From NCBI GenBank assembly GCA_017521295.1, contig JAFXDF010000020.1, forward strand, positions 1 through 64,000: DNA of 64,000 nucleotides, given 5' to 3'. The translations under genes and the position numbers were made by a program. This DNA comes from Clostridia bacterium (GTDB taxonomy: Bacteria; Bacillota; Clostridia; Oscillospirales; Butyricicoccaceae). Shown one piece after another: positions 17,508 through 45,871 of the stretch. Numbering within the stretch: position 1 is the first letter of the stretch; each line of letters opens with the position of its first letter. The notes under the pieces are model-generated. The model worked only from the letters and a program-made list of their open reading frames with translations. It ran no database searches and had not been told where the DNA came from.

Positions 17508-18551
17508 TTACCATTTATTATGTACTTTTTCGGCAAAACCCACGAAATCCCGGAGTTTGATCTCGGTGCCGTCGTCCAGCACCATTTTGCCGGTGAATTT
17601 TCCAAAGACCTGATGCTGGTCGCTGCAGATCAGCTTCACATCGGTGCAGGAGGCACGGTCCAGGATGGGCACGAAATCCATCTCAAACCGCCCGTCGGTG
17701 GAGGTAAAGGTCCAGGGGCTCAGAAAATCATCGGTGCCGTCGGCCTTTTGGGGGATGTTGAAGGTGATGTCTTCCAGCTTGTGCGCCACACCATCCACGA
17801 AAATCATGTTTTCCGAGGCCTTGGAGGTGTCGCCGAAGCCGTAGCCGATGTTGAAGCCCACCACATGGCCGTCCACCTGGCCATGGCCGGCGCCCCAGTA
17901 CCAGGTGTTCTCATAGGTCCAGACGCCCCGGCCCCAGTCTAGCATGCCAAAGGTCTCCTTGGGGTCCAGGGTGTACAGCTTACCGTCCACCGAAACGCTG
18001 CCCGAGGCCCGCATACCTACGATCTTCTGATTGTAATAGAAGGCCTTGGGTGCGCCGGGAAAGGGGGTGGCGATCACCATGCTGTCCCGGGGCTCGTCAG
18101 TTAAAACAATGTCGCAGACAAAGGGCTTTCCACCTCGGAAGTTCTCCATCCTGCACTGGAGCTTGCGGACACCATTTTCCACCGCAAAGGTAAAGTCGGC
18201 GGGGTGTTTTTTGTCGGGGATGGTCCACTTGCTGACCCCCGAAACGCTGGAGGCGGGGAGGTTCACTTTGCCCATGGGCATGACGCCGATGGGGCTGACG
18301 GTGGTTTCACCGGGAACGGTGAAGTCGATAAAGGAGGCGCTGAGCATACTCATATAAGCGTTGTCGTCCATGGTCAGCGCGATGGCAAAGCGATCGTTGT
18401 AAATCAGATAATAGTCCCATTCCTTGATACGCAGGGCAGGGGCCTTGATATCGGCCCGGCAGTAGGCCTTCACCAGGGAAGTGGCGTAACCGGCCTCGTT
18501 CAGATGGCCTTTTTCATTGAGGAGCTTTCCGGGAGACAGTTTGTGCTGCAT
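17508..18551 (-). CDS. DUF2804 family protein
   Basis: A 347-residue protein that matches DUF2804 throughout: it has LKEKGHLNEAGYATS-type N terminus (here LLNEKGHLNEAGY), a mid-region KIVGMRASGSVSVDG, and the family core DWGRGVWTYENTWYWGAGHG near residue 220. The fold is predicted to be beta-rich and lipocalin-like, but function is not established. The start is ATG 18551, with AAGGAGGGA at 18557-18565; the frame is open upstream without another ribosome site. It is a single gene between the tRNA element and a terminator. Confidence 0.82.
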   Translation of the reverse strand: MQHKLSPGKLLNEKGHLNEAGYATSLVKAYCRADIKAPALRIKEWDYYLIYNDRFAIALTMDDNAYMSMLSASFIDFTVPGETTVSPIGVMPMGKVNLPASSVSGVSKWTIPDKKHPADFTFAVENGVRKLQCRMENFRGGKPFVCDIVLTDEPRDSMVIATPFPGAPKAFYYNQKIVGMRASGSVSVDGKLYTLDPKETFGMLDWGRGVWTYENTWYWGAGHGQVDGHVVGFNIGYGFGDTSKASENMIFVDGVAHKLEDITFNIPQKADGTDDFLSPWTFTSTDGRFEMDFVPILDRASCTDVKLICSDQHQVFGKFTGKMVLDDGTEIKLRDFVGFAEKVHNKW

Positions 18552-18610
18552 AGCGATCCCTCCTTGTAAATTAAGTTCAGTATAACAGGGGAGGGGCAGA
18601 AAAACAAGAA

Positions 18611-18642
18611 AAAAGCCTTGCTTCCGAAGAAGCAAGGCTTTT
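18611..18642. terminator. Strong terminator-like hairpin downstream of tRNA-Leu element
   Basis: A perfect 14-bp stem (AAAAGCCTTGCTTC and its complement), which on the minus strand is closed by a TTCG loop and followed by TTTTTTC. Its outer end directly abuts the copied tRNA 3' end. Confidence 0.85.
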
Positions 18643-18662
18643 GGTGCGGATGAAGGGACTTG
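18642..18662 (-). repeat. Copy of the 3' end of tRNA-Leu
   Basis: These 21 bases are identical to 18786-18806, the CCA end, acceptor 3' strand and part of the T arm of the tRNA-Leu gene; including flanking Ts the match is 24 bases. The rest of a tRNA is absent. The two copies are 144 bases apart in the same orientation. Confidence 0.85.
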
Positions 18663-18736
18663 CCCGTCTGCGGACGGAGCGGTGGCGCGGGAAAACAGTC
18701 CACCGGACTGTTTTCTAACACGCGCCCTTCAAGTCC
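18656..18736 (-). other. Structured palindromic element next to tRNA-Leu
   Basis: An outer 7-bp pairing (18656-18662 with 18730-18736, GGACTTG/CAAGTCC) closes two arms. One arm is CCGTC-TGCG-GACGG at 18664-18677. The other is GGCGCG/CGCGCC (18684-18689 with 18721-18726) around a perfect 11-bp hairpin at 18691-18715. The fold is a three-way junction. No protein gene is supported here. It fills most of the 464 bases between the DUF2804 gene and the Rrf2 gene, together with the tRNA and two terminators. Confidence 0.6.
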
Positions 18737-18750
18737 TACATCGAAAACAA

Positions 18751-18786
18751 AAAAAGAACAGCACCCAAATGGGTACTGTTCTTTTT
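18751..18786 (-). terminator. Intrinsic terminator of tRNA-Leu
   Basis: AAAAAGAACAG and its complement enclose a second short stem (ACCC/GGGT) with one mismatch; on the minus strand a T-run follows. It begins directly at the encoded CCA end of the tRNA. Confidence 0.85.
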
Positions 18787-18872
18787 GGTGCGGATGAAGG
18801 GACTTGAACCCCCATGAAATTGCTTTCACATGGACCTGAACCATGCGCGTCTGCCAATTCCGCCACATCCGC
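18786..18872 (-). tRNA. tRNA-Leu (anticodon CAG)
   Basis: An 87-base tRNA with a 7-bp acceptor stem (GCGGATG/CATCCGC), GGCGGAATTGGCAGACGC D-arm typical of leucine tRNAs, and an anticodon loop TTCAGGT giving anticodon CAG for codon CUG. It has a long class II variable arm, the T arm GGGGGTTCAAGTCCC, and an encoded CCA. CUG is the favoured leucine codon in this genome's highly expressed genes. Confidence 0.95.
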
Positions 18873-44808: not shown

Positions 44809-44842
44809 GCCTCCGGTCGGTATGACCGGAGGCTTTCTTTTA
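44809..44842. terminator. Terminator after ispH-rpsA
   Basis: A perfect 10-bp stem (GCCTCCGGTC and its complement) with a GGTAT loop, followed by TTTCTTTTATT. It lies between convergent genes. Confidence 0.88.
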
Positions 44843-45871
44843 TTCTTCATCCTCATCCGTTGGGCGTTTTTTGCTTTTGGTAGGGGAGATATGGCTCAGG
44901 GGATTGGCCTCGGAGGCATCCTTGAGGTTTTGGTCCACCACATGGGTGTAAATCATGGTAGTGTCCAGGTTTTCATGGCCCAGCACTTCCTTGAGGGTAC
45001 GCACATCCACGCCGTTTTGATACATCAGTGTGGCGGCTGTGTGACGAAGTTTATGTACCGAACAGTGTTTTTGGGACAGGCCAGCTGCGCCAAGATACTT
45101 CTTCACCAGGGCTTTGACCGTCTGCACATTGATCCGCTGGCCGAACTGGCTGACAAACAGCGCGTTTTTATGGCCGGCTTTTGGCGTGATCCGGTGGGGG
45201 AGATAGGCCTCAATAGCGTTGAGACAAGCCTGGTTTAAATAAACCATCCGCTCCTTATTGCCTTTTCCAAGCAGCCGCAGGCGGTCATCGGAGATATCCT
45301 GGAGGTTGATGCCTACAAGCTCGGAAACACGCATGCCGCAGTTGAGAAACAGGGTGATGATACAGTAATCCCGCTCTTTGTATTTTCCTTCGATGGATTC
45401 CAGTAATTGCAGGCTTTCACGAAGGGTCAGATACTTGGGCAGTGCGTTCTGGGCTTTAGGCATATCCAGGCTCTTGGTGGGGTTTTCGTCGATCAGCTGC
45501 AGTTTGTCGCAATAATATTTGTAAAATCCACGCAGGGAAGAGACCTTGCGAGCTCGTGTACGGACTTCGTTACCATATTCCGTTTCGGCACTTTTATGGT
45601 GTTTTGGCCGCTCTCTGGCAGTAAAAACAAGGAAATCCAGAACTTCTGCACGGGTAACACTACGGACAAGCTCCAGGTCAACAGGGTCCAGCGAAATGGC
45701 CGAAAAGTCCTGAGAAGGGGAGGTAAGGCCCCTTTTTTGCAGGATAAAGCGGAAAAAAGTTCGCAAATCCAGATAATATTCGTTGACAGTTCTGGGAGAC
45801 CGGCCCATAATAGTTTCCAGATAGACCAGATAATCCCGAATAACCGGTGGGGATTCCTTTAAATAATCCAT
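44840..45871 (-). CDS. Tyrosine recombinase (XerC/XerD-like)
   Basis: A 343-residue site-specific recombinase. The N-terminal SAM-like core-binding domain spans about 8-130. The catalytic set is complete: Arg181 (CGMRVSEL), Lys203 (LGKGNKER), His273-Arg276 (HKLRHT), His299 (LGHENLD) and Tyr308 (MIYTH). The last 30 residues are a charged tail. It is slightly longer than classical XerC/D (about 300). No phage or transposon genes flank it, so it may be a chromosomal XerC-like enzyme or a domesticated integrase. Its 5' region overlaps that of the divergent alkyltransferase gene; TATGAGGG provides the ribosome site. Confidence 0.9.
   Translation of the reverse strand: MDYLKESPPVIRDYLVYLETIMGRSPRTVNEYYLDLRTFFRFILQKRGLTSPSQDFSAISLDPVDLELVRSVTRAEVLDFLVFTARERPKHHKSAETEYGNEVRTRARKVSSLRGFYKYYCDKLQLIDENPTKSLDMPKAQNALPKYLTLRESLQLLESIEGKYKERDYCIITLFLNCGMRVSELVGINLQDISDDRLRLLGKGNKERMVYLNQACLNAIEAYLPHRITPKAGHKNALFVSQFGQRINVQTVKALVKKYLGAAGLSQKHCSVHKLRHTAATLMYQNGVDVRTLKEVLGHENLDTTMIYTHVVDQNLKDASEANPLSHISPTKSKKRPTDEDEE

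Follow-up and report, generated by a model that had tools for sequence, protein, structure and literature searches.

Why should the 3' end of a tRNA gene be written twice, with a folded sequence lying between the two copies? The locus that raises this question lies in the window, by which we mean the whole stretch of 64,000 nucleotides of a Clostridia bacterium that was analyzed. The 21-mer CAAGTCCCTTCATCCGCACCA, which is the tail of tRNA-Leu(CAG), is present exactly twice in the window, both times on the minus strand and 144 bp apart. The preliminary description had seen this exact duplication, CCA included (18786-18806 and 18642-18662), and had proposed two terminators, for which we find terminator-like hairpins at 18748-18785 and 18608-18638. 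It left the choice between a small mobile or integrated element that uses the tRNA 3' end as its site and a tRNA-derived small RNA. The parts of the locus are as follows.

18786..18872, minus strand: tRNA-Leu(CAG) gene, the anchor of the unit, called by ARAGORN and Rfam RF00005 (start 18786/18789)
18663..18806, minus strand: 144-bp unit, its length being the distance that separates the two tail copies; it consists of tRNA tail, terminator 1, spacer, inverted T-arm copy and core K
18786..18806, minus strand: proximal tRNA tail, from C56 of the T-loop to CCA, within the working tRNA
18748..18785, minus strand: terminator 1, carried by the unit; assigned from sequence, with a similar terminator in the C80 unit and none at the empty site (see below)
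18728..18736, minus strand: GGACTTGAA, which repeats the T-loop/T-stem of this tRNA in inverted orientation and forms the 5' strand of stem P1, which covaries
18663..18727, minus strand: core K, 65 nt, with an identical K beside tmRNA in a sister species
18684..18726, minus strand: arm P2, with a GGCGCG/CGCGCC lower stem, a TGTTA bulge and an 11-bp hairpin, from fold and covariation
18691-18715, minus strand: the perfect 11-bp hairpin of P2, with a 3-nt loop
18664..18677, minus strand: arm P3, CCGTCCGCAGACGG, from fold and covariation
18642..18662, minus strand: distal copy of the tRNA tail (21/21), the displaced original tail according to the empty-site comparison
18656-18662, minus strand: 3' strand of P1, which is the first 7 nt of the distal tail
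18608..18638, minus strand: terminator 2, taken by analogy with C80 to be the one with which the tRNA gene originally ended

The boundaries of the unit can be placed equivalently anywhere along the 21-bp repeat. The 81 nt from 18656 to 18736 fold into a three-way junction with an outer stem GGACTTG/CAAGTCC, and our fold recovers both arms and the perfect hairpin just as they had been described. What is new is the origin of the outer stem: its first arm is an inverted copy of the T-loop and T-stem of the tRNA, so that P1 closes the junction by pairing an inverted T-arm with a tail copy. As RNA, the region 18640-18745 folds at -46.1 kcal/mol (z -4.4), better than 200/200 shuffles, and as DNA the element reaches z -5.6 and -5.5 on its two strands, again better than 200/200 shuffles.

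The window locus is one member of a large and apparently undescribed family of hairpin units anchored on tRNA ends. Two more units are found in the window's own genome, one 95% identical at another tRNA-Leu(CAG) gene (C80) and one at tRNA-Ser(TGA) (C41). A covariance model built on 19 units, whose E-values are rough, matches 122 of 394 genomes of the window's order (92/314 among those of good quality) and 16 of 291 genomes in the class. Across the phylum, the window's own genome is the only one of 299 to match at E up to 1e-4, so the model rarely fires by chance. The family is thus present in roughly one in three of the genomes sampled from this large order of Clostridia. Most of these genomes are draft MAGs, in which repeats can be misassembled, but isolates such as Negativibacillus massiliensis (L056) show the same pattern, and so does a single-contig genome (L319). 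A unit begins with the tRNA tail and continues with a terminator, the inverted T-arm copy and the three-way-junction core K, after which comes the displaced tail, and the anchors are tRNA genes of 22 anticodon types, plus tmRNA, one unit of the latter kind (L006) having been identified from the tmRNA 3' sequence. Tandem arrays of 2-4 units are common, with a spacing of 109-161 bp. A text search of the literature, with preprints outside its reach, returned no relevant earlier description, and it is on this search that the apparent novelty of the family rests. The preliminary description had allowed that the element might prove unique to its locus, that relatives might lack compensatory changes and that the duplicated 21 bases might be absent from related tRNA loci. 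None of this is the case: the fold recurs beside other tRNA 3' ends, both in the same genome and in relatives, every helix shows compensatory changes, and a tail copy is found at most of the related loci.

The ends of the units follow the tRNA next to which they sit. Of 111 units, 84 have a tRNA within 3 kb upstream, and 58 of these 84 begin within 70 nt of its CCA. In 67% the distal tail reaches a match of at least 16/18 to the local tRNA, compared with 0.1% when tails of tRNAs for other amino acids are used as controls, and the inverted T-arm matches it at 10/10 positions in 61%, compared with 6% in the controls. Direct repeats of at least 16 nt flank 30 of 39 near-tRNA hairpins, the longest in 143 controls being 11 nt. 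The inverted copy varies in length, from about 7 to 21 nt, and the outer stem of relatives is altered to fit the local tRNA. The core behaves differently: the window K agrees at 65/65 positions with the one behind tmRNA in a sister species (G006), and its identity to the one at tRNA-Leu(TAG) of another genome (G014) is 95%, whereas the tails in this comparison of tRNA-Leu with tmRNA and tRNA-Leu(TAG) loci are only 71% alike. A second type of K is shared by Tyr, Ser, Val and Phe tRNAs at 82-90% identity. As judged from these alignments, K travels between different RNA genes while its ends change. We know of no mobile element whose ends match its current target in both orientations.

All helices of the structure covary. 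In 19 units collected by hand, 93.3% of cells pair, as against 31-48% when the strands are slid, and there are 80 double changes; in 85 distinct units fitted to the model, 92.4% are paired. Over P1, P2 and P3, both sides have changed in 514 cells of these 85 units, where shuffling gives a mean of 151, and in P1 and P2 together about 13 cells with a one-sided change stand against 417 double changes. In one array (L008), neighboring tandem units have fully compensated stems, GACGTGCC/GGCACGTC in one and GACAGTCC/GGACTGTC in the other. A stable, covarying fold directly behind a tRNA gene is what a structured regulatory RNA or a tRNA-derived small RNA would look like, but the manner of the covariation is unusual: RNA helices usually show many G-U intermediates, while here the helices swap one Watson-Crick pair for another, with very few G-U pairs outside P3. 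Since G-U intermediates are nearly absent, the helices would work as DNA structure, or else the stems would be rewritten by copying, and our data suggest one or the other. Also, the element sits downstream of a terminator, its presence is patchy among close relatives, and the tRNA alone matches in an Rfam scan above the gathering score. The small-RNA half of the preliminary proposal is therefore not supported and we consider it quite improbable, whereas the other half, a small mobile or integrated element at the tRNA 3' end, gains support from the units at other tRNA 3' ends, the compensatory changes and an empty site.

This empty site is the orthologous tRNA-Leu locus of C80 in another genome (G007), which has no unit; the downstream flanks align throughout with a single gap of 143 bp, the counterpart of the window's 144-bp unit. 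The terminator found directly after the tRNA in G007 is the distal terminator of C80, and the terminator carried in the C80 unit differs from this original one. The alignment therefore identifies the unit, including its terminator, as the insertion and the distal tail as the displaced original, although the empty site may alternatively reflect loss of a unit by recombination between the tails. A tRNA-Val(GAC) locus was followed through nine genomes from a single family: a unit fills it in one, decayed remnants (the inverted T-arm and the start of K) are left in two and the rest are without a unit, a pattern which indicates that units come and go.

How they come is where the readings divide. 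With the family, its architecture, its match to the local tRNA, its structure, its tandem arrays, the empty site and the near-identical K at different RNA genes observed directly, the reading we favor, at a little under an even chance, is that these are non-autonomous, protein-less units, mobilized in trans as folded DNA, whose insertion site is the T-loop end of a tRNA or tmRNA gene. On arrival, a unit would supply a terminator and a tail copy of its own, leaving the tRNA intact and properly ended, and the old tail would be left displaced behind the folded site P1-P2-P3, which is closed by the inverted and direct T-arm copies. Excision and insertion would proceed on folded, probably single-stranded, DNA through a recombinase given in trans, much as integron gene cassettes move via their folded attC sites, with a minority of units carrying genes. 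When K arrives at a new tRNA, copies of the T-arm of that target would have to be made. It is here that this reading is weakest, as a simple cassette insertion fails to explain why both T-arm copies match each new tRNA.

The matching of both ends is accounted for by replicative template switching, an unlikely but substantial alternative that needs no dedicated recombinase. K bears the T-loop consensus TTCGAA at both ends, and each 3' end would anneal to the near-palindromic T-loop of a new tRNA gene and be extended, so that the tail is copied to one side and a short inverted T-arm to the other. The variable length of the inverted copy and its end at T54/G53 are explained as well, and one single unit (L007) with nearly equal terminators 1 and 2 fits. 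But template switching does not explain foreign terminators: terminators 1 and 2 are alike in only 9 of 32 loci, several of which are tandem or partial distal units, and are not detectably similar in the other 23, despite tail copies mostly at 17-18/18, and the carried terminator of C80 is likewise unlike the original one. Also, priming over about 6 nt at 22 anticodon types needs some targeting. Should template switching be true, it would amount to a mechanism that writes inverted copies of tRNA sequence into the chromosome.

Ordinary homologous recombination has been considered too, in the form of a rare founding event followed by gene conversion and unequal crossing-over over shared tRNA sequence, between tRNA genes and between strains. 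The C29 and C80 units, whose tRNA-Leu(CAG) genes are identical and which have K in common and resemble each other in terminator 1, would fit, as would the identical tandem units of two loci (L314, L323), and that unequal crossing-over could produce tandem identical units also counts against our favored reading. Still, this route cannot carry K to a tRNA gene whose tail is unlike that of its present one, nor take it from tRNA-Leu to tmRNA, and as a complete account we regard it as improbable. It may be that two mechanisms act, copying when K reaches a new tRNA and cassette-like or homologous transfer among like tRNAs.

Returning to trans-mobilized folded DNA, the likeness to integron cassettes and attC sites is considerable. 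Units are arranged in arrays parted by imperfect folded sites, conserved in structure and diverse in sequence, the combination that characterizes such sites; their ends regenerate the insertion site; and in the cleanest gene-bearing unit the gene lies upstream of the folded site and points to it. An integron-like model thus explains tail restoration, the carried terminator, the arrays and the structure, but not the end matching at new tRNAs. The differences are equally clear, as these units are anchored on tRNA genes and not on attI, mostly carry a terminator only, have a core that starts with the T-loop CRANNCC instead of GTTRRRY, and have ends that match each tRNA. Read by eye, the unit junctions begin at the T-loop CRANNCC and finish in YTYGAA, with no GTTRRRY/RYYYAAC attC core. 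The fuller version, a tRNA-anchored counterpart of the integron whose recombinase would act on folded DNA sites and tRNA T-loops, collect terminators, defense genes and restriction-modification systems behind tRNA and tmRNA genes, and rewrite the site ends for each new tRNA, is one we put forward tentatively and hold to be rather unlikely as a whole. If the integron-like reading is true, it would provide a separate route by which small genes are gained at essential loci.

The gene-bearing units are a small minority, which itself speaks against the favored reading. The one clean case is the second unit of L053, in which a 306-aa gene with its own promoter-like sequence has perfect 21-nt tails (21/21) on both sides and matches the PADLOC phage-defense candidate PDC-S02 (E=1.8e-30); PDC-S02 homologues elsewhere are not adjacent to units. 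Two further cases are partial, a pair of methyltransferase and TdeIII restriction endonuclease with a truncated unit to one side and another unit to the other (L312), and a gene for an SLH protein in opposite orientation between tRNA-Ser and a unit (L222). Three other candidates proved not to be clean cassettes: in L313 there is a second complete tRNA-Leu, in L234 a longer duplication and in L345 an island-like segment ahead of a unit. Beside the window unit, a 375-aa gene (17508-18635) lies between the unit and a GntR gene; in a related locus (L019) a GntR-like gene is directly 3' of the tRNA, so the 375-aa gene has been gained or lost beside the unit.

That no mobilizing recombinase was identified also weighs against mobilization in trans. 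The IntI profile TIGR02249 gave no match above its cut-off in 30 unit-bearing genomes, which are incomplete MAGs, and with the same profile a single tyrosine recombinase each was found in two of them (G345, G059). The window itself encodes an Xer-like protein (44840-45871), one candidate recombinase among others. An all-against-all comparison of the ORFs of hairpin loci revealed no transposase family beside tRNA-linked units; phage records held no match to the core, and viral contigs none to three K patterns. No integrase lies inside the units examined, the window unit measuring only 144 bp. Genomic islands of tRNA and tmRNA genes of the Islander type are similar in that the inserted element interrupts the tRNA gene, brings a replacement for its tail and has the displaced tail at its far end (PMC4383910). 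They differ in size (many kb against 144 bp) and in having an integrase, while the units have tandem arrays, an inverted T-arm copy and a structured core. The displaced tail being the usual mark of such islands, each unit could be the leftover attachment site of a lost, integrase-bearing one. In one genome (G043:C38 25889-32604; L238, L243), a 6.7-kb element in tRNA-Leu(TAG), which encodes a BetR-like regulator and a tyrosine integrase, lies directly upstream of a family unit, as the lost-island reading would have it. We nevertheless find that reading very improbable: the units are uniform in length, each has a terminator and a folded core of its own, and they form tandem arrays and reside at 22 anticodon types, with no integrase in those examined. 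Tycheposons, kilobase-sized mobile elements that are associated with tRNA genes and bring a tyrosine recombinase and cargo genes, share this association, but the units have no tyrosine recombinase gene and are not kilobase-sized.

Short, palindromic and dispersed sequences also call to mind REPs or MITEs moved by an IS200/IS605-type (RAYT) transposase, and the same hairpin, AAACAGTCC-NNN-GGACTGTTT, turns up in many other genomes at places with no tRNA nearby. The stems of CGTC REPs measure 8-9 bp and their loops 4-5 nt, and these REPs bear a tag (PMC3733652); like the units, REP and CGTC/GTAG repeats are short dispersed hairpins, some without a linked transposase, but here an 11-bp hairpin with a 3-nt loop forms part of a three-way junction with tRNA sequence at its borders. 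Set against the features in PMC3733652, the stem has no adjoining GTAG or CGTC terminal tag, and ends derived from the target are not a REP feature. The terminal inverted repeats and short target duplication of a MITE are not present either, the repeat being an 18-21 nt tRNA tail and the ends varying with the target. Of 30 genomes or records with the hairpin, 12 gave no match to Y1_Tnp, three of the richest among them, and we see scarcely any chance that the units are REPs or MITEs moved by such a transposase.

The hairpin itself has a wider distribution. AAACAGTCC alone was tried as a mark of the family and rejected, as most of its genome-wide matches are away from tRNAs and without flanking repeats. 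A reversed-pattern control hairpin had 0 matches in 30 genomes chosen mostly for carrying the hairpin. The exact hairpin (L035-L154), which belongs to several distinct repeat families and mostly does not lie near tRNAs, is found in Bacillota, Pseudomonadota, Bacteroidota, Planctomycetota and others. A sub-threshold Rfam match leads through the shared hairpin to Brucella CI153 (RF02604), which holds the same palindrome with T-arm-like flanks and may, besides being an RNA gene, represent a related repeat element. Behind a tRNA-Ser(TGA), four hairpin copies at 69-bp spacing (L145, 4057-4500), without a recognizable tail copy, form an array of another type. The same hairpin, in the form GAGGAGG(A/G)TCAGAAAACAGTCC-NNN-GGACTGTTTTCCCGACG, is located inside or beside transposase genes of several IS families in alphaproteobacteria and others (L217-L221, L055, L101, L111), with IS110 annotated in L220, IS256 adjoining in L221 and IS66- and IS3-like elements recognized by eye; at these genes, the hairpin is apparently a separate short insertion.
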